64,000 nucleotides of DNA, taken from assembly GCF_000012885.1 (NCBI RefSeq), contig NC_007498.2, forward strand, positions 3,070,001 through 3,134,000. The letters are read 5' to 3'. Source of the DNA: Syntrophotalea carbinolica DSM 2380 (lineage in GTDB: Bacteria; Desulfobacterota; Desulfuromonadia; Desulfuromonadales; Syntrophotaleaceae). The notes below the pieces were generated by a model that was given only the letters and a program-made list of their open reading frames with translations, was not told the DNA's origin and ran no database searches. The translations under genes were made by a program, and so were the position numbers. This document shows, in pieces, positions 1,401 through 59,384 of this stretch (positions are counted from its first letter, which is position 1; each line of letters begins with the position of its first letter).

Positions 1401-3673
1401 GACCTTTTCCCCCTGACGACACCGAGCAAGGGCAGCGCCGCCAGCAGCGCAAATGCCAGCACCGCGATTTCGCCCAGCGTATCGAGGGCGCGAAAATCGA
1501 CAATGATTACGTTGACGATATTGCGACCGTGCGCCGCGGGAAGACTCTGCGAGGCGAAAAATCCCGACAAACGATCATCGAAAGGAAGACCGGAGACCAG
1601 CAGCAGCAAAAGCGTCACGATGGTTCCGAAGGCCAGCGCTATACCCCGCGCCAGATACCGTTGTGAGCGTGCTTCGGCCGAAATCGCGGAGGAGATGGTT
1701 TTCAGGCGTCTCAAGCGGAGCAATACGCAGGCGACAACCACCACGAACACGGTCTCGATCGCAAATTGGGTGAACGCCAGGTCCGGCGCTCCGGTAAACA
1801 GAAACAGCACCGCACTGCCGTATCCGACCACCCCGCTGACCAACAGCAAAATCAGATGATCACGCACGAACAAAACGGTCAAAGCTCCCGCGGCAATTAG
1901 CAGAGAGGCACCGAGCACCGGGATCGTCAACGTCTGTAAAACCGGCCAGGTCGCAACGGGGCGCGCCCATAACATCAACAGCGCAATGAACAAAGTCACC
2001 ACCCCGACCAAAGTCATCAGGTAGCGGGACAACAGACCGTGCTGCAAAAAGCGGGTCTGCCGGGCCACCAGATGCGGTAAAAAAGCCAGCAGATGTCGAT
2101 ACCAGGATTCCGGGCCATAATTGCCGAGAAAACGAAGGCGACTAAGCAAACGATGCAAACGATCCCATTGCAGATAGACGATCCCGCCGAAAAAGAAGGT
2201 AAGCAGGGTGGCTTCAATCACCGAAAAGATATCGTAAGAAGCCATAACCCGTGCAGCTTTGAACCCGGGAGCGATGGAGCGGGCGGCAGCCCCCAACACC
2301 GGGTCGACCAGGGTCGGAGCGAAACCGAACAGCAAACCGAGCAGCACCAGGATCAGGGGCGGAAACAGCATGCTGGCCTTTGCTTCGTGGGGTTGCGCCT
2401 TGCGGGGCACGGTATCGGCTCCCCAGAAAATGCGGATCGCGGCAATGGCCGCAACGGCCACGGACATGCCGTTGACAAACACCGTCGCGTAACTGACGGG
2501 GCTCAAAACAACGGCCTCGGTCTTGGCCAGGGTAATCGCATCCTTGGCAACGAAACCGAATGTCAACGGCACCCCCGCCATGGAGAGCGCCGCCAGCAAC
2601 GCCGCGGCGGCCGTCCAAGGCATATAGCGGCGCATGCCGGTCAAGCGATCGATTTCACGGGTACCGGCGCCATGATCGAGATTCCCCGCGATAAAAAACA
2701 GCGGCGCTTTGTAAAGCGCGTGGGCGAAAAAAAGAGCCGCAACCGCCAGGGCCGCACCTTTGCCGGGAAAACCGACCAGCATTGTCAGGGTTCCCAGGGT
2801 AGCCACCGTCGACCACGCAAGAATGCGCTTCAAATCACGCTCGCACATGGTCTGAATGGCGGCAAAAACTGCCGTAAAGGTTCCTGCGGCGATAAGTGTA
2901 TACTCCCAGAACACAACATCGCTGAAGGCGGCATCCAGACGCGCCAGCAGATAGATGCCCAGCTTGACCATGGTTGCCGAATGCAGATAGGCGCTGACCG
3001 GTGTGGGAGCGGCCATGGCATTCGGTAGCCAGAAGTGAAACGGGAACTGAGCGGACTTGGTAAAAGCCCCCAGGAAGATCAGCATCAGGGCCGGGGGCAG
3101 ATGCGGGTCTGCCATAAAAGAAGGGGCCGCGGCAATAAGGGATTGCATGGAATAGGTCCCGGCAAGCCGGCCGAGGATGATGATCCCGGCAAGCAGGCAA
3201 AGTCCCCCTGCGCCGGTTATCAGCAGAGCTTGCTGCGCCGACTTCCGGGCGGTCTCCTGCTCATGATCGAACCCGATCAGCAAAAACGACAGGACACTTG
3301 TCAATTCCCAAAAGATGAAAAGCACAAGCAGGTGATCACTGATCACCGCACCGATCATGGCGATCATGAAAAGCTGCAACAAAACAAGGACCCGCCGCCT
3401 TTTCGGATGCTCGGCCAGATACCCGGACGCATAGACAAAAACCAACGTGCCGATCCCCGTGATCAACAGCAGAAACTGCGCTGCCAGGCCATCGACATAC
3501 AGCGAAAAATCGACATTCAAAGAAGGGATCCATGGCGCGGAATAGCTCCGGGGCAATGGCATGGTGAACAAGCCGTACAGCAACAGGGCAAACAGGGTCG
3601 CAGGCAGCAGGGCCGGCCACAGTCTGCCGATCGGTGTTGCCGTCCCGTTTTTCGGGTGTGTGCTTTCTTTCAC
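1397..3673 (-). CDS. mnhA: Mrp/Mnh antiporter subunit A (NuoL-like with C-terminal MrpA extension)
   Basis: A 758-residue polytopic membrane protein and the largest antiporter subunit. The N-terminal two thirds resemble NuoL, with VFIFWELTSVLSFLLIGF and the proton-channel signature AYLHSATMVKLGIYLLARL. The C-terminal third has the extra helices of MrpA, including GAPDLAFTQFAIETVFVVVV, and ends with an MbhE-like segment (VDFRALDTLGEIAVLA). I chose a GTG start because GGGAGG lies 4 nt upstream and the next residues (KESTHPKNG) precede the first helix. The open frame continues upstream to 3808 but without a ribosome site. It is the first gene of the operon, and the 182-bp gap to the divergent stress gene should hold the promoter. 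Confidence 0.93.
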   Translation of the reverse strand: MKESTHPKNGTATPIGRLWPALLPATLFALLLYGLFTMPLPRSYSAPWIPSLNVDFSLYVDGLAAQFLLLITGIGTLVFVYASGYLAEHPKRRRVLVLLQLFMIAMIGAVISDHLLVLFIFWELTSVLSFLLIGFDHEQETARKSAQQALLITGAGGLCLLAGIIILGRLAGTYSMQSLIAAAPSFMADPHLPPALMLIFLGAFTKSAQFPFHFWLPNAMAAPTPVSAYLHSATMVKLGIYLLARLDAAFSDVVFWEYTLIAAGTFTAVFAAIQTMCERDLKRILAWSTVATLGTLTMLVGFPGKGAALAVAALFFAHALYKAPLFFIAGNLDHGAGTREIDRLTGMRRYMPWTAAAALLAALSMAGVPLTFGFVAKDAITLAKTEAVVLSPVSYATVFVNGMSVAVAAIAAIRIFWGADTVPRKAQPHEAKASMLFPPLILVLLGLLFGFAPTLVDPVLGAAARSIAPGFKAARVMASYDIFSVIEATLLTFFFGGIVYLQWDRLHRLLSRLRFLGNYGPESWYRHLLAFLPHLVARQTRFLQHGLLSRYLMTLVGVVTLFIALLMLWARPVATWPVLQTLTIPVLGASLLIAAGALTVLFVRDHLILLLVSGVVGYGSAVLFLFTGAPDLAFTQFAIETVFVVVVACVLLRLRRLKTISSAISAEARSQRYLARGIALAFGTIVTLLLLLVSGLPFDDRLSGFFASQSLPAAHGRNIVNVIIVDFRALDTLGEIAVLAFALLAALPLLGVVRGKRS

Positions 3674-3855
3674 GGTCCCTCCCGAACTACTGCTCTTTTT
3701 TAGAAAACTTATAAAATAATAACATACTTCCGTCGACGTAACTTTCAACGTTGCCATGCCTACCGTTGCATCACGGGGATGCGGTCCCTTCCGCAAAACA
3801 GTCGGCATGGTATACTGGGCGAAAAGTAAACGGGCACATTTTGGGAGGATTTAAA

Positions 3856-4782
3856 ATGGAGCGATTTAAAAACATTCTGTTTGCTTCATATGGGAGCAAG
3901 GAGGATGCGACAGCACTCGATCGGGCCAATCGCCTTGCCGGCAAAAACAAGGCACAGATAACCCTTACCCGGACCCTGGCACCGATCCCTTCGGTTGCCG
4001 GTTATTTTTTGCCGAAAAATCACCTGGAAGATATGCAAAGCGCCGTACACGCCATGGCGGAAAAAGATCTGGCAACTCTTGCCAAAAAAATCTCCCCGGG
4101 GATTAAGGTCGAAACGAAAATCCTGACCGGAAAACCGTTTATCGAATTGATCCGGTCGGTGCTTACCGGCCCCCATGACTTGATCATCAAACCCAAACAA
4201 CCCGCGCCGGGCGGCAAAACCCTCGCTGGAACCGACCTGCATCTGCTCCGCAAATGCCCCTGTCCCGTCTGGATTATCAACCCCACACAACGCAAACCGT
4301 TCGGCAAAATCATTATCGCCGTCGACCCCGACCCCTCCGATCCGGAGAAAGTCGCCCTGAATACGGACCTGATCAAAATCGGCACGTCCCTGGCGCAGAG
4401 CGAACAGGGGAAGATCGAAGTGGTGCACGCCTGGACGCTCGATGGCGAAACGACTCTGCGCGGGCCGCGCTTTACCATGAGCGACGCCGAGATCGACGTG
4501 CTGGCCGACAATGTCCGGAAAACCCGCCTTCAATGGCTGCAGGATTTGCTTGCACCCTACGGCGACGGCGCCATAAAGATCACGTTGGAAAAGGGGGAAC
4601 CGGGCTCTACACTGGTGTCGATCATCGAAAGGAAAAAACCGGATATCGTGGTCATGGGAACCGTTGCCAGAACCGGCCTACCCGGCCTTCTGATCGGCAA
4701 CACGGCCGAATACGTCCTGGGCAGAATCAGTTGTTCCGTCCTGGCCATCAAGCCCCGGGGATTTAAAACGCCCGTTTCCTGA
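3856..4782 (+). CDS. Tandem universal stress protein (UspE-like)
   Basis: A 308-residue cytoplasmic protein made of two UspA-type domains, roughly residues 1-150 and 155-308. The second repeat begins KIIIAVDPDPSDPEKV and carries the ATP-loop-like stretch VVMGTVARTGLPGLLIGNT, ending NTAEYVLGRISCSVLAIKP. The first repeat begins FKNILFASYGS and ends with LLRKCPCPVWII, but lacks an obvious glycine-rich ATP loop, as in UspE. The start codon follows GGGAGG by 9 nt; an in-frame extension upstream to 3751 has no ribosome site. It is divergent from the antiporter operon. The exact stress role is not shown by the sequence. Confidence 0.88.
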   Translation: MERFKNILFASYGSKEDATALDRANRLAGKNKAQITLTRTLAPIPSVAGYFLPKNHLEDMQSAVHAMAEKDLATLAKKISPGIKVETKILTGKPFIELIRSVLTGPHDLIIKPKQPAPGGKTLAGTDLHLLRKCPCPVWIINPTQRKPFGKIIIAVDPDPSDPEKVALNTDLIKIGTSLAQSEQGKIEVVHAWTLDGETTLRGPRFTMSDAEIDVLADNVRKTRLQWLQDLLAPYGDGAIKITLEKGEPGSTLVSIIERKKPDIVVMGTVARTGLPGLLIGNTAEYVLGRISCSVLAIKPRGFKTPVS

Positions 4783-24972: not shown

Positions 24973-26104
24973 GGGGACGCCCATGAAATTATGCGTTTAC
25001 CCATTCCGCCAGACGCCACCCCTTTTCTCTGGCCAATTTTTGTCCACGTTGAACCGATCTACTGACTGCCGATTGAGTTATTCCCAAAAGCCCGGCAATC
25101 TCCATCGTTGAACAACCCAACTCCTTTACAGCCCAAAAGCAAAGTATGCTTCGTGCCGCAACCCGTTTTGGTCGCTTATCTCCCGACCGAATATCCTCGG
25201 AACCGACCTCAAGCTTATCAGCAACTATTTGCACAAGCTCTTTCAGGTCGATATCCCAGCGTCGGCATCTTTCCAATTTCTCATCCGCGTTTCGCAATAC
25301 AGACTCAACGAACTCGCTGTCTCCGAGGATGCGTTCATCGCTTTTCAGTTGCGGTTCCTCTTTTCGCAGGGATGCCAATTTTTGCCAACCGCCCGCACTG
25401 CGAACCAGGTCGCCACCGATAAGATCGAAGCGACGTCCTTGCTCAATACCCGCAGCAATAAAACTCAGATATTGTTTTCGGGCAACAGTCACTCGCTTGC
25501 CAAAACGCTCCAGAACCTGGTCGACGGCCTGCCAGCTGCTGGCACGACGCCCCAGTAAGCAGCCGTGTCCGCAAAAGGGGAACTCGGCCAATTCTTCCAA
25601 AGTTGACACCAAGCCGGCACGCAATGGGTTAAGATGAAGATAACGAACCAACTCCAGAAGGTAAGGTTCTTCCTGACACAATATGGACTTGTAACGATTC
25701 TGGAATAGGTGCCCATGTCGATGATGGCGACGATTAAATTTAACACTGTAACCCGTCAATAATCGGCGCATGACATGAGCAATCGGCGCTTTCCCCGTTT
25801 GCAACAACAGGTGAAAATGGTTAGGGATCAGCGCCCAGGCAAAACATGGGGTGGATGTTTCTAAAAGGATTGTCGACAAACGTGATACAAAGTCACCCCG
25901 GTCAACATCATCGCGAAAGATCGCTTGGCGCTCCATGCCGCGACAAATGATATGATGGAGCGCACCTGGTGCATCTATGCGAGCTTGACGTGGCATGATT
26001 AGAGTTATGCCATTTTTCTGCCAGGTAAAGCAACACACAATACATATTACTAATCTTGCTGAGATACAACATCATAAGAAACGCATAATTTCATGGGCGT
26101 CCCC
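24973..26104. mobile_element. RAYT element bounded by perfect 26-bp inverted repeats
   Basis: The 26 bases at 24973-24998 (GGGGACGCCCATGAAATTATGCGTTT as 20+6) are repeated exactly in inverted orientation at 26079-26104. Between them lies one REP-associated transposase gene; the left repeat covers its stop codon. This is the layout of a REPtron, i.e. a RAYT gene flanked by its cognate REP sequences. Confidence 0.7.
24989..25996 (-). CDS. REP-associated tyrosine transposase (RAYT, Y1_Tnp) with C-terminal HTH
   Basis: A 335-residue protein. The N-terminal Y1 transposase domain starts MPRQARIDAPGALHHIICRGME and carries the metal-binding HUH motif in WALIPNHFHLLLQTG; the helix with the catalytic tyrosine is in the LLTGYSVKFNRRHHRHGHLFQNRYKSI region. 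LVRYLHLNPLRAGLV is typical for the family. A C-terminal extension (about 260-335) ends with a helix-turn-helix-like STMEIAGLLGITQSAVSRSVQRG. The protein appears intact. It is flanked by perfect inverted repeats that it presumably recognises. The start is at the family N-terminus; a 14-codon open extension upstream is unlikely. Confidence 0.9.
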   Translation of the reverse strand: MPRQARIDAPGALHHIICRGMERQAIFRDDVDRGDFVSRLSTILLETSTPCFAWALIPNHFHLLLQTGKAPIAHVMRRLLTGYSVKFNRRHHRHGHLFQNRYKSILCQEEPYLLELVRYLHLNPLRAGLVSTLEELAEFPFCGHGCLLGRRASSWQAVDQVLERFGKRVTVARKQYLSFIAAGIEQGRRFDLIGGDLVRSAGGWQKLASLRKEEPQLKSDERILGDSEFVESVLRNADEKLERCRRWDIDLKELVQIVADKLEVGSEDIRSGDKRPKRVAARSILCFWAVKELGCSTMEIAGLLGITQSAVSRSVQRGQKLAREKGWRLAEWVNA

Positions 26105-26147
26105 CTAGGTGCTAGGTGTCCCTAGACCCGGATTTCCCGCTTTTACC

Positions 26148-27699
26148 CTACAAAGTCCATCCATACCGATGAATCTTGCCGATATTGTGGAGCATCGTCA
26201 TCAATTTCCATTGCCCATCGACTTTGGTGCGACCACGCAGGGAAAACCGTCGCAGCCCAAGCGTTTCGCGCAGATTGCCAAAGACAGGTTCGACGATGCC
26301 CAGGCGTTGCCCGTAAATGTGGCGACCGAACACGGAATCGATCTTCTGTTTCATCCGCTCGATAATCCCGATCTTGGGACTCGATAGCGTCTCCAGCAGC
26401 ACGTTGACCTGGCGGGCTCCTTTTTGGCGGATGTCTCGCAAGCATTGGCTCCGTTTTGCACAGCGATCACAATCAGCCTGATAGCCCATGAATTGCATGA
26501 ATAAACGCTCGCCGATCTTGGCTTTGGCGCACTTGAGCCACAAAGGGTTACCGGCCGGACAGACGCAGGTCTTGTTGGCAAGATCGACCTGAAAGTCGCT
26601 GACGCTGAAGCGTTTTTTTGGGGTGGATCTTTGACGCACCGGAGTCTTGGGGCTTGTGACGTGACGCGGTCTTGAAACGGGGATCGCGGGAGCGAAAACC
26701 AGGATCGGCGATATAGCCGTCTATGCCTTCTGCTTCCAGATGCTCCAGAGTCTGTCCGCTATGAAAACCACTATCGGCCAGGATTTTGGCTTCGCTAAGA
26801 ATCTCGTCACCACAGTTATGATAGTTACCGTTGAAGGCCTTGCGGATGCCCTCAAGCATCGGTTCGAGCAACCCATGCTCCTGTCCCGTACCGAAGGCTT
26901 CGGCATGCACCACCACCTGATGCTCGGCATCGACCGCGGCGACGCCAGTGTAGCCCTGAAGCACGCCGTGGCTGGTCTTCATCTTGGCGCTGTCGTTATC
27001 GGTGATGTTGCTTTTCACTTCCTTGCCGCGACGACCCTGGCGTTTTTTGTTTTCGGTCAGGAACTTCTTGATCTTACGACTGGCCTTGGTCAGAGTCTCT
27101 TTCTGCTTTTCCTCCCGCTGCCGCATGGTCGGATCGGGCGGCCCCTTTTTATCTTCTTCGCGGTGCTTGTTGAGCAGAAAGCGTACGGCCCGGTCGATCT
27201 TCTTGGCTTTCTTTTTCAAATCGTCGTGGGTGCCGCTCCACTCCTTGCAGGCGTTCGATGGCATCTTGCAACCATCAACGGCGAACATCTCATGACCAAT
27301 CAGCCCCAGGGCATCGCAGACCATCAGCACCTGATGAAACAGGTCGGCAATCTGTTCGGCAGATCCGGAGATGAAGTCGGCAATGGTGGTGAAATGCGGA
27401 CGGCTGTCGGCGGACAGGGCCATAAAGATCACGTTTTCACGGCACAGCGCTTCGATTTTGCGACTGCTGGTAACCCCGCGCGAATAGGCCAGCAGCACAA
27501 TCTTCAGCAGAATGGCCGGATCGTAGGCGGGACGGCCGGCTTCGTCGTTGTTGAATTTACTGTTGAAAATACTCAGGTCGAGTTCGTTGTCGACCAGGTA
27601 GTGCAGGGAATACTCGAAGGTGCCGGGCAGGATTTGCTGTTCGAAATCCACCGGCAACATAACGGTTTGCTTGTAGTCGTAGGGTTTGAAACGAGGCAT
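26148..27699 (-). pseudogene. IS1182-type transposase with a frameshift
   Basis: Two overlapping minus-strand frames (26548-27699 and 26148-26639) form one IS1182-like transposase of about 515 residues. The N-terminal part has the DUF772-type segment PAYDPAILLKIVLLAYSRGVTSSRKIE, then AVDGCKMPSNA (a DDE aspartate) and ILADSGFHSGQTLEHLE. The C-terminal part has the cysteine group CDRCAKRSQC and the DDE-domain end VEPVFGNLRETLGLRRFSLRG. The switch falls near 26655-26665, where AAG CCC C AAG ACT shows one extra C in a run of four; removing it joins the parts in frame. I could not find convincing terminal inverted repeats. Confidence 0.8.
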
Positions 27700-27765
27700 G
27701 AGAAAAACCCCTTTAGCATTTCATGAATTTTTTCGCATTCTAACACGTTTTTGGGTTTTCCTACA

Positions 27766-27873
27766 GCCTTAACGTTTTGGACACCCGGCGGCGACGCGAA
27801 CTTACGTGTACCACCGAAGTATTCGAAAATCTGCACACCTATTTTCTGACCGGTTGATGCGATGGTTAGCTAA
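27766..27873 (-). repeat. attC-like recombination site (cassette 2)
   Basis: This starts nine bases after the stop of the zinc-ribbon cassette gene. It is bounded on the minus strand by AGCTAACC (R''-like) and GTTAAGGC (R'-like), about 105 bases apart, with partly pairing inner arms. R' departs from consensus GTTRRRY at the last position. The position relative to the gene is right for an integron cassette. Confidence 0.45.
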
Positions 27874-27881
27874 TGCCAAAA

Positions 27882-28172
27882 TTACTTAGCTACGACTTTA
27901 ACTGTTTTAACTTGATTTCTAAATAGATAGGCAGCATGAATAGCCCCTAAGACGAAAGCGCATAGGATAATTGGTAGAGCTATTTTATCTTGTATTGTAA
28001 GCCAGTGATCATTCACGTATCTCAGTGCATAAAAAATAACAGTACCATATATGATGCCAAAGAGCCATTTAAGGCCGCCAGCTCCATATTTAACAGTTCC
28101 ATGGCAACCTCTACATATTTTGACTCCTCGTTCAAACTCATAGCCACATAGTCCACACTTTATCATTTCCAT
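27882..28172 (-). CDS. Zinc-ribbon small membrane protein (integron cassette gene)
   Basis: A 96-residue protein. An N-terminal zinc ribbon, CGLCGYEFERGVKICRGCHG, is followed by two predicted membrane helices (about 33-50 and 63-84) and a basic end VKTVKVVAK. I do not recognise a specific family. The AT-rich composition differs from the core genes. It is one of two genes that lie in the same orientation between attC-like sites next to an integron integrase gene, so it is probably a captured cassette. A cassette usually lacks its own promoter, and none is evident here. Confidence 0.65.
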   Translation of the reverse strand: MEMIKCGLCGYEFERGVKICRGCHGTVKYGAGGLKWLFGIIYGTVIFYALRYVNDHWLTIQDKIALPIILCAFVLGAIHAAYLFRNQVKTVKVVAK

Positions 28173-28187
28173 ATTCCCTTTAGTATT

Positions 28188-28282
28188 TAGCTAACGACAT
28201 GAGGAACCGGTTTGTGAATACGCGCAACGTATTCACAAATCCGCGTTCACTCACTTCTTGGGTTGCCTTCTATCGTTACCTG
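28188..28282 (-). repeat. attC-like recombination site (cassette 1)
   Basis: On the minus strand the ends AGGTAACGA (R''-like) and TCGTTAGCT (R'-like) are inverted repeats with one mismatch. The interior contains the strong hairpin TTTGTGAATACG-TTGCG-CGTATTCACAAA. The 95-base size and fold suit an attC site at the end of the first cassette. Confidence 0.55.
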
Positions 28283-28327
28283 ATCTGTTAAAAATACGTA
28301 GCTCGCAAGCAGCGATTCAAATGCAGG

Positions 28328-28825
28328 CTAAGATTCTTCGAATGCCGCCTCCGTTCTACTGGATAGGATAATGAAGTTGATGGTCTTTGTTTCTTTAACG
28401 TAGCCTGCAGCTTCATAGTTGCCCCAAGAATCGCCGTGGAAGAAGAAAATATGCGCAGTGCGCTTGCCATCAGATGTTTGAATCTCCTTTATGAACCTCG
28501 CCTTGTAGTTTGGACTCCCGTTTTCATGGAATCGGTCGACGTTGAATTGGACAAGTGATGGAATGTCCTGAATGACCTCATCCTTTGTTGCAGCCCGCGC
28601 ATAGGCGATAGCGGTTGCGTCACGCCATGCGTGCCCCGCCTTATAGAAGACCGCATGGAGCCCCTGACCCACGCCGCTCTCGTTGTCCAGAACCCAGCCG
28701 GGAGGAGCTTGAAAGGAGAACGCGTGGTCTCGCCCGTAAAAGATACCACCCCCCTCCTCCGATATTGAGGAGAAGGCTGTGGGCGGAAGCATTATTAGGA
28801 GCGCCAGAAGCAGTATTCTTTTCAT
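28328..28825 (-). CDS. Secreted hypothetical protein (integron cassette gene, truncated by a late stop)
   Basis: A 165-residue exported protein of unknown function. Residues 1-19 are a signal peptide (MKRILLLALLIMLPPTAFS). The mature part includes FSFQAPPGWVLDNESG and IFFFHGDSWGNYEAAGYVKE, a beta-rich domain like those of many cassette or stress-induced secreted proteins. After ...AAFEES the frame hits TAG, but the following codons continue sensibly (PAFESLLASYVFLTDQ) until TGA inside the attC-like site, so a late nonsense mutation has probably removed about 20-30 residues. The cassette boundary GTTGGGT lies 10 bases before the start codon. Confidence 0.6.
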   Translation of the reverse strand: MKRILLLALLIMLPPTAFSSISEEGGGIFYGRDHAFSFQAPPGWVLDNESGVGQGLHAVFYKAGHAWRDATAIAYARAATKDEVIQDIPSLVQFNVDRFHENGSPNYKARFIKEIQTSDGKRTAHIFFFHGDSWGNYEAAGYVKETKTINFIILSSRTEAAFEES

Positions 28826-28834
28826 TCTTCTTCA

Positions 28835-29004
28835 ACCCAACTATAAATAGACAGTCTGGATAAAACCGTAAACACTGACACCAACCTGTCTGTATAAGAC
28901 AACTTATAAATCAACAACGAGCCTTTGCTTTATCCCTATTTTCAAGCATTTACACAATCCCAACCTTTACTCTGTCAATTTATATACAGACTGGATATAC
29001 CCAT
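28835..29004 (-). other. Putative attI region of the integron
   Basis: This 170-base AT-rich segment lies between the 3' end of intI and the first cassette gene. A core site GTTGGGT (minus strand, 28841-28835) fits GTTRRRY. Nearby are repeats of a CAGACTG/ CAGTCTGTAT type (around 28851 and 28985) and TACAGACAGG. attI sites are poorly conserved, so identification is by position and core site only. Confidence 0.35.
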
Positions 29005-29990
29005 TCAAAGAGCATCCACCGGGCTACGGACTCTGCGTCCTCCCTTATTGAGGACATGGGTGTAGATCATCGTCGTACAGATATCCTTGTGGCCAAGCAA
29101 CTCCTGAATCGTCCGAATATCGCACCCATCTTCCAAAAGATGAGTGGCAAAGAAATGACGGAAGGTATGACACCCGATCCGTTTGACAATGTTTGCCTTG
29201 AAGACAGCTTCTTTGATGGCACGCTGAAGAAGGGTTTCGTGAAGGGGATGTCGACCTTCCTCTCCTGTCTTCATGTTTTTCCACCGGTTTTCCTGCGGGA
29301 AAACCCATTGCCAGCGCCATTCCCTGGAGGCATTAGGATATTTATCCTCTAACGCATCAGGCAACGAAACCCGGCCCCACCCTTCCGCAATGTCTTTCTC
29401 ATGCAGCAGTTTCACATTGTTCAAATGGGCCTTTACCGGGGTACTCAACGACTCAGGGAACATGGTGCGCCGATCCTTACCACCTTTTCCATCTCGAACC
29501 AGAATTTCGCCTTGCCCGAAACCTAAGTCATGTACACGTAAACGCAAGCATTCCATCAAGCTCAAACCAGCGCCGTAAAGCAGGCCGGCCATTAACTTTT
29601 TACTGCTGGTAAGATGGCTTAAAACCTCTCTCACCTCATCGCGCGTCATCACGATCGGCAACCGCTTGGGCTTCCTAGCTCTGATAACCTCGCCCAGATT
29701 GCCAATCTCCCGACCAAGAACATGCCTGTATAGAAACAACCGTGCCGACAATGCCTGGCTTTGAGTAGATGCGCTGACCTTGTGTTTTACCGCCAGATGA
29801 GTGAGAAAGGCATTGATCTCCGGTTCGGCCATTTCCTTCGGGTGACGAACATCATGAAAAAAATATACCGCTTTACCCATTGACAATAGGTTGATTCAGT
29901 TCGGCGGCTGTAATGACGGGTACCTAGCGCCTCTCGCAACTGATCCAGAAGTTTTGGTGCTCCCTCCCGGTTACCGAGCTGGCGCTTCAC
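29005..29990 (-). pseudogene. intI: Integron integrase, frameshifted and lacking a catalytic arginine
   Basis: A tyrosine recombinase of the IntI class, recognised by its unique insertion LPDALEDKYPNASREWRWQWVFP, plus KVSASTQSQALSARLFLYRHVLG and the box HTFRHFFATHLLEDG...LLGHKD...MIYTHVL with His, Arg, His and Tyr. A T7 run at 29857-29863 shifts the frame: the N-terminal part (GTG at 29990, LREALGTRHYSRRTESTYCQWVKRYIFF) reads into HDVRHPKEMAEPEINAFLTHL only if one T is added. The first catalytic arginine (GLR in relatives) is Ser in GLSLMECLRLR. About 327 residues would be normal length. It is oriented the same way as the cassettes, which follow its 3' end. Confidence 0.8.
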
Positions 29991-30079
29991 ATAACTGGAC
30001 CATTCAATAGCCTCTTTTTTATAACCGTTTAACCTTTTAAGGTCAATGTATTTTAATGGGAGCGCCTTACTACAACTAA

Positions 30080-31516
<1,437 letters not shown>

Positions 31517-56799: not shown

Positions 56800-57199
56800 G
56801 GCCGGAGAGAACCGTAAGCCGGGTCCTGTTCCCCCCGCCGGTTACCCGCACGGAGGGCGATGATCATTCCTCTAGGACCGCCGTTGCCGACGGCCTCAAG
56901 CAACCAACCCGGAAGTCTCGGACGGGCCGCCCTCAAACACTTCCCTATTTGGCCTTGCTCCGGATGGGGTTTACCTAGCTTCCGGCGTCGCCGTCGGAAC
57001 TGGTGAGCTCTTACCTCACCGTTTCACCCTTACCTGCCCAAGCCTCGACTTCGACAGGCGGTTTGCTTTCTGTGGCACTGTCCCTGGGGTCACCCCCGGT
57101 TCCCGTTAAGAACCATCCCGCCCTGCGGAGCCCGGACTTTCCTCCCGCCCGCTACCGCCGAAACGGAACGAGCCGACGATCATCTGGCGCTCTCCGACC
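56800..57199 (-). ncRNA. rnpB: RNase P RNA (bacterial class A)
   Basis: The minus strand holds the universally conserved elements of RNase P RNA: GAGGAAAGTCCGGGCTCC near the 5' side, CAGGGACAGTGCCACAGAAA, GGTAAGGGTGAAACGGTGAGGTAAGAGC, AAACCCCATCCGGAGCAAG, GATGATC and the 3' ACCCGGCTTACGG. The ends were set by the P1 helix: GGTCGGAGAG at the 5' end pairs with CTCTCCGGCC at the 3' end, giving 400 nt. It is the catalytic RNA that matures tRNA 5' ends. It lies in the rpoD-tRNA-Nif3-zinc ribbon neighbourhood and is followed by a strong terminator. Confidence 0.97.
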
Positions 57200-59308: not shown

Positions 59309-59384
59309 TGGTGGGCCCACCAGGATTCGAACCTGGGACCAACCGGTTATGAGCCGGTGGCTCTACCAACTGAGCTATAGGCCC
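59309..59384 (-). tRNA. tRNA with CAU anticodon, probably tRNA-Ile2 (lysidine type)
   Basis: A 76-nt cloverleaf with encoded CCA. Acceptor GGGCCTA/TGGGCCC, D arm AGCTCAGTTGGTAGAGC, anticodon arm CCGG-CTCATAA-CCGG, variable TTGGT and T arm CCAGGTTCGAATCCTGG. The anticodon is CAU. Base pairs C4-G69 and C5-G68 are those used by TilS in E. coli to recognise tRNA-Ile2, which favours isoleucine over elongator methionine. It lies 38 bases beyond the rpoD stop codon and is followed by a terminator. Confidence 0.9.

Follow-up and report, generated by a model that had tools for sequence, protein, structure and literature searches.

Bacteria keep and reshuffle spare genes, among them resistance genes, in integron arrays, and the R′ box of the attC sites there (GTTRRRY) has GTT as its core. 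We describe here a 64,000-nucleotide stretch of the Syntrophotalea carbinolica DSM 2380 chromosome (the window, part of a 3,665,893-bp single-contig genome in the order Desulfuromonadales) that holds the relic of a chromosomal integron, not a working one, with an insertion sequence (IS) of the IS1182 family in the R′ core of its second attC site. Elements that seek attC are known among the IS1111 relatives, described as a group with a DEDD transposase guided by a seekRNA (PMC11187229). The group IIC-attC introns, characterized as RNA-based, directed to the bottom strand, and inserted opposite to the cassettes, are attC-homing as well (PMC7923331). Within the IS1182 family itself, IS1272 and TnSha1 are portrayed as replacing or partly deleting hairpins of no fixed sequence and as leaving no duplication (PMC5678879, PMC4923244). 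As to integrons, the intI genes of Treponema are reported to be transcribed towards attI, in the cassette direction (PMC3607928), and an “inverted integrase group” appears as a standing category in another report (PMC10500605).

Like the group IIC-attC introns, the IS described here is a mobile element at attC that spares the cassette genes, but it is a DNA transposon and lies in cassette orientation. Unlike the IS1111-attC group, it has a DDE transposase, terminal inverted repeats, and GTT at both ends, and although it shares the transposase family and a hairpin target with IS1272 and TnSha1, it keeps the attC up to the R′ core, at a fixed base and in a fixed orientation, with GTT on both sides. 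The integron resembles those of the Treponema kind in that intI reads towards attI and the cassettes, and it differs in being a dead two-cassette remnant beside purB in the Desulfuromonadales. Our preferred reading, to which we assign a probability of about 0.88, combines the two: a relic integron of the inverted kind whose array would have been invaded, at its second attC, by an IS1182-family element from a lineage that inserts at attC sites. No attC-seeking IS1182 element was found in the literature searched, a scope that excluded subscription journals and ISfinder, and the co-mentions of IS1182 and attC among those examined are incidental.

The gene at the head of the locus encodes an integron integrase. 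Its product scores 410.3 bits against TIGR02249, the integron-integrase model (cut-off, 265), versus 133 for XerC and 121 for XerD, and its closest solved relative by sequence (phmmer) is the Vibrio IntI 2a3v (E = 1.3e-73), so that the initial annotation, which saw in this locus a decayed integron with an IntI-class recombinase, identified the gene correctly. Decay is evident as well. Profile positions 1-33 and 30-315 lie in separate frames (29990-29787 and 29886-29005), and the catalytic Arg of GLRLMEC is replaced by Ser (GLSLMEC), whereas Arg is present in all 37 other distinct loci with a readable motif (three duplicate rows excluded); because of the frameshift and the lost Arg, the integrase is, to judge from its sequence, dead. 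The enzyme would once have inserted cassettes at 28841 and then failed through these two lesions. Two further full-length integrases of the same genome (~51% identity to that of the window) might act in trans on the attC sites.

At nine loci of the clade (the window, L040, L043, L050, L129, L131, L132, L133, and L135), attC lies 3′ of intI and on its strand, and 14 other loci have the opposite layout, with attC 5′ of intI on the opposite strand; the same-orientation arrangement originally claimed, with attI and attC following intI, is thus found here and at eight related loci. In the integrase tree, eight inverted loci, together with two unlabelled rows, fall on one side of a branch with a support of 100/100. 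This tree is read as unrooted, the two intended XerC/XerD rows being wrong frames and the root void, but the split between inverted and divergent layouts stands because it is independent of those rows. The relic is a defunct integron of a known kind, the inverted kind having been assigned by layout and by its own clade in a compared set that includes no Treponema or planctomycete integrases.

Read along the minus strand, intI (29990-29005) is followed by a 180-bp gap, an open reading frame (ORF) of 165 codons, a hairpin (attC1), an ORF of 96 codons, a second attC-like stretch (attC2), and a transposase gene. A putative attI region had been proposed next to intI, and there is indeed a conserved block 3′ of the gene (...TTTTATMCAG..ACTGTCTATTTATAGTT), clearly visible at 8 of the 10 loci aligned from the clade, that ends in ...CTATTTATAGTT at 28841; attI is placed there because the block closes with the first cassette's GTT.

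The attC sites were sought with two covariance models: R1, built from 10 seed sites chosen by consensus beside integrases of this order, none of them beside an IS (two come from IS-free sites of this genome), and R2, built from 29 R1 matches at 11 loci in family genomes without the IS at E ≤ 1e-30. A loose consensus scan gave chance matches on both strands and was therefore used only to pick seeds, a strict one (RYYYAAC...GTTRRRY) found no site in 27600-30100, and R1 with default filters returned no attC match in the 64-kb window. With filters off over 27500-30200 (2.7 kb), R2 matched attC2 at 27871-27767 (minus strand, E = 6.4e-5) and attC1 at 28263-28189 (minus strand, E = 0.0068), the next match standing at 1.4; R1, searched in the same way, gave 0.0076 for attC1 and only 3.1 for attC2. 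The checks that the initial annotation had named, an attC covariance model and an IntI profile, thus find both sites and intI (a recombinase that is IntI-like rather than XerC/XerD-like), and its two cassettes with attC-like ends stand on this home-built model. The folding check that it proposed for both intervals gave a strong fold in one of them: the attC1 stretch (28180-28290) is a strong hairpin, folding far below shuffles (z = −6.4 on the minus strand and −5.0 on the plus strand), but the attC2 stretch (27755-27880) folds no better than shuffles (z = +1.05 and +1.42, respectively), which fits a site that has decayed while keeping a recognizable sequence. By eye, attC2 is similar to the attC flanking the related element at L087, in a different genome.

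The cassette genes had been described as belonging to no recognizable family, and so it appears. The product of the first (165 amino acids, with a signal-peptide-like N terminus) has no Pfam or NCBIfam match and no match in 20 relatives, 394 further genomes of the phylum sample, the genome_contigs set, plasmids, or viral contigs; that of the second (96 amino acids, CxxC...CxxC, with two hydrophobic stretches) reaches only UPF0547 in Pfam, below the threshold (14.3 of 29 bits), and has no match in the 20 relatives. The proposal to look for the same cassettes or an intact version in relatives was accordingly answered in part: the cassettes are unmatched there, but a full array of the same inverted kind is present in a sister species (L040).

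The integron of the initial annotation is real, but the lower limit drawn for it, 27766, marks where an IS1182-type element (27770-26122) has been inserted; neither this element in the R′ core of attC2 nor the presence of intI or its remnants next to purB elsewhere in the family formed part of that annotation. A frameshift splits the transposase gene of the window copy into 27699-26548 and 26639-26148 (NF033551, 180 and 86 bits). The genome has six copies of the IS, with 1,649 bp kept in the window and 1,801 bp in each of the five others, which are complete, have open transposase frames of 523 codons, and end in GAGGCTGTAGGAAAACC / GGTTTTTCTACAGGCTC as terminal inverted repeats; three copies are identical over 1,640 bp. 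An intact copy of this genome scores 269.9 bits against NF033551, marginally below the cut-off of 270, and the relatives at L076, L107, and L109 score 284, 303, and 285 bits. The Pfam matches of the transposase are DDE_Tnp_1_6, DDE_Tnp_1, and DUF772 only, with no IS110-type DEDD transposase. All six copies have an attC in front of their 5′ end, and GTTA follows the 3′ end wherever that end persists. The window copy would later have lost its 3′ end, together with all that lay beyond it, by a deletion reaching to the gene of the repetitive extragenic palindrome (REP)-associated transposase. In most members of this IS group, ~130-240 bp of non-coding sequence separate the transposase stop from the right end.

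Relatives of the IS occur in 14 of 136 genomes of the order (this one included), in 18 of 395 genomes of the phylum, and at five loci in genome_contigs, and three plasmid records carry transposase relatives at 43-50% identity (others are below 30%); none was found in viral contigs. Those placed at attC extend down to ~42% identity and over three phyla, with members in the window's phylum, in a Nitrospirota metagenome-assembled genome (MAG; L074), in a gammaproteobacterial MAG (L076), and in two Pseudoalteromonas records (L102 and L103, the latter with the right IS end only). After removal of duplicates, 35 insertions have a recognizable 5′ end and at least 100 nucleotides of flank, and 29 of these show GTT at the left junction. 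The IS stands at one position and in one orientation relative to attC, with GTT at both ends and the hairpin intact: an R2 match ends on the predicted base in 24 of the 29 GTT insertions and one base off in another (the first copy at L068), 20 of these 25 junction matches reach E ≤ 0.015, and every attC match in the IS loci (63 of 63 at E ≤ 5) lies on the strand of the transposase. The filters-off R2 search covered 23 of 45 loci. No R2 junction match was found in the six non-GTT insertions (L075, L109, L111, L114, L115, and L119; by eye, L114 has an attC with an altered core) or in five classical IS1182 elements from plasmids. At the right junctions, GTT is followed by A or G in 31 of 31 cases caught by a script that required GTT; the right end of L108, outside its catch, continues with C, and L104, L120, and L124, whose left ends are not recognized, lack GTT on the right.

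Two natural cases bear on the insertion point. The attC that fronts the IS at L079 has close relatives, and in eight aligned loci the shared sequence breaks off at one and the same GTT, past which other cassettes follow in seven loci and the IS in one (L170). In the second case, a cassette identical over 328-329 bp stands at 647.7 kb and at 3,565 kb (L068 and L070), 2.9 Mb apart, and joins two different arrays exactly at GTT. Past each copy stands an IS, placed at the identical base and facing the same way, and the two elements belong to different sublineages (97.93% identical). The most natural reading is that a single attC sequence was hit twice, although exchange of sequence among IS copies could produce the same picture.

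In a tree of 30 transposases, 25 relatives split from five classical IS1182 proteins with 100/100 support, and the non-attC members L075, L109, L111, and L119 form one branch (99/100). The elements at L109, L111, and L119 are a sister IS1182 lineage with ends GAGACTGTCGAAAAAGG...CAACAGTCAC, and their 5′ end lies behind CTTGC in all three; this lineage may have another fixed target. A further relative, at 1733-4149 of a Catenovulum plasmid (L104), lies near an annotated group II intron maturase fragment and has no GTT at its right end.

Several points weigh against a lineage that inserts at attC. Five of the R2 junction matches are weak (L108, 0.08; L112, 0.15; L102, 0.29; L106, 2.6; and L117, 4.9) and were counted solely for ending on the right base, and 4 of the 29 GTT insertions (L080, L083, L090, and L107) have no R2 junction match, L107 being attC-like by eye and the other three not clearly so. 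The 29 insertions were themselves chosen by GTT at the left junction, and the right-junction script also demanded it; unforced views of L075, L104, L109, L111, L119, L120, and L124 show no GTT. The insertions are, moreover, partly non-independent, six of them coming from one genome. The 21 GTT-labelled transposases are not recovered as one clade in the tree (24% of bootstraps), some of these rows being labelled by one end only and two of them (L080 and L083) having no R2 match. Finally, a home-made score (R″/R′ complementarity plus fold energy) put 11.7% of the 4,198 GTT sites used as controls at −10 kcal or lower; of 17 joined empty sites, 12 reached −10, 4 scored nothing, and one was −10.5 or weaker only by the margin of the rule, and because of this poor separation from control sites the score was replaced by the covariance model.

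One possibility is that this IS1182 lineage reads the folded attC hairpin, probably as the single bottom strand and much as IntI does, and inserts at IntI's cut point, so that the attC stays working and the next cassette carries the IS. The transposase itself would pick the site, sensing the folded attC or its R′ box. This DDE enzyme would set the 5′ end of the IS against the 3′ foot of the attC hairpin, within the GTT of the R′ core, duplicating GTT where IntI cuts and leaving the hairpin whole. Since the IS starts with GAG, the old attC ends in GTTGAG(G/C), at or one letter from GTTRRRY, and, with GTTGAGG and GTTGAGC so near the R′ consensus, it may still recombine. The IS would become the head of the next cassette, and the cassette beside it would stay mobile. 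As the GAG start is also found in the sister lineage, it need not be an adaptation. In the window, the array could have been invaded after the loss of the integrase or before it.

Among the alternatives, an IS that seeks any hairpin, as IS1272 does, with attC sites merely the commonest hairpins in integron-bearing genomes, is unlikely. Such behavior exists in the family, IS1272 and TnSha1 being reported to enter unrelated hairpins (PMC5678879, PMC4923244), and the insertions at L080, L083, and L090 have no recognizable attC; this alternative is nonetheless hard to reconcile with the single base and orientation, the GTT on both sides, and the retained hairpin, as IS1272 and TnSha1 cut into theirs, leave no target duplication, and, in the case of TnSha1, insert in both orientations (PMC4923244). 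Nor was an insertion at an ordinary terminator noticed among those inspected by eye, no genome-wide search having been made. It is considerably less probable that IntI put the transposase unit in place as an ordinary cassette. Recombination by IntI, which joins at the same G^TT, would also give GTT at both junctions, and, as in a cassette, the transposase gene reads along the array and has its start ~75 bp past the core; against this, none of the 45 loci has an R2 attC match ending at the right junction of the IS, the element has terminal inverted repeats (GAGGCTGTAGRAAAACC / GGTTTTTCTACAGGCTC), and the sister lineage has the same kind of ends at non-attC sites. The unit as a cassette is unsupported, as R2 finds no 3′ attC of its own, and because there is no attC at its 3′ end, IntI could not place it as an ordinary cassette. 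At least as improbable is the view that the IS landed beside an attC once, long ago, and has since been spread passively, on cassettes and through recombination among its copies: the three identical copies of this genome (1,640 bp) indicate that copies may exchange sequence, but attC sites and right flanks vary from one insertion to the next, transposase divergence reaches 58%, and a single cassette sequence bears two different IS sublineages at two places. That the locus was never an integron, only a tyrosine recombinase beside chance hairpins, is scarcely credible, for the blank R1 search with default filters and the unexceptional fold of attC2 are set against a TIGR02249 score of 410 bits, a conserved attI, R2 matches at both sites, and working arrays of the same layout in relatives such as L040. 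The preferred reading thus remains that of a relic inverted-kind integron that an attC-inserting IS would have invaded, and the features on which it is based are collected in Table 1.

Table 1. Features of the integron locus and its borders (window coordinates)
Feature	Position	Strand	Basis or remark
intI pseudogene, inverted-integrase kind	29005..29990	-	TIGR02249; two frames; Arg->Ser in GLRLMEC
attI region, core GTTGGGT 28841-28835	28835..28900	-	conserved block 3′ of intI
Cassette 1, ORF 28825-28328 (165 aa)	28195..28840	-	limits are the attI core and the attC1 R′ core
attC1 of cassette 1, R′ core GTTAGCT 28195-28189	28189..28281	-	fold z and R2 match
Cassette 2, ORF 28172-27882 (96 aa)	27773..28194	-	limits are the R′ cores of attC1 and attC2
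attC2 of cassette 2, R′ core GTT 27773-27771, the IS insertion point	27767..27871	-	R2 match, its end on the base expected from the IS end
IS1182-family element, 3′ end lost at 26122	26122..27770	-	NF033551; 6 genome copies
purB-type lyase gene, fixed neighbour of intI in the family	30128..31516	+	intI/remnant adjoining in 6/14 family genomes
REP-associated tyrosine transposase gene, right-hand locus border	24989..26038	-	Y1_Tnp, 35 bits

The intI gene or a fragment of it stands divergently beside purB in 6 of 14 family genomes (at the window, L041, L042, L054, L055, and L056), a count drawn from the regions around integrase matches only, with purB of the remaining eight genomes outside those regions. 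The relic at L054 has two attC matches (E = 0.00075 and 0.0034), and beyond it, too, lies the REP-associated transposase, with a protein 95% identical to that of the window and 208 bp of flank at 96%. The transposase of the window (24989-26038) has an extra C-terminal part with a weak likeness to the DnaA DNA-binding domain (22.6 of 31.5 bits). At L040/L041 (G004, 2.79-2.82 Mb), an intI fragment adjoins purB, and ~11 kb off lies a complete intI of this clade together with its array, as though an integron had been established alongside the remains of a previous one; by eye, the L040 array includes two tandem toxin-antitoxin-like cassettes (7808-6403), each with its own attC. Elsewhere in the window, RNase P RNA (56800-57195) and a tRNA-Met (59309-59384) are both on the minus strand.

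For this family, the relic means that several members retained an intI next to purB that later became disrupted. If the lineage does home on attC, it would be a third independent kind of attC-homing element and the first with a DDE transposase, moving both by transposition and as a passenger of cassettes, and DDE-type homing at one fixed attC base in at least three phyla would amount to convergent evolution on the same landing site. It raises the question of whether a DDE transposase can read the folded single-stranded attC that IntI reads. The end pair GAG(G/C)CTGT(A/C)G ... CTACAGNCTC would serve as a marker for the boundaries of arrays in genomes.

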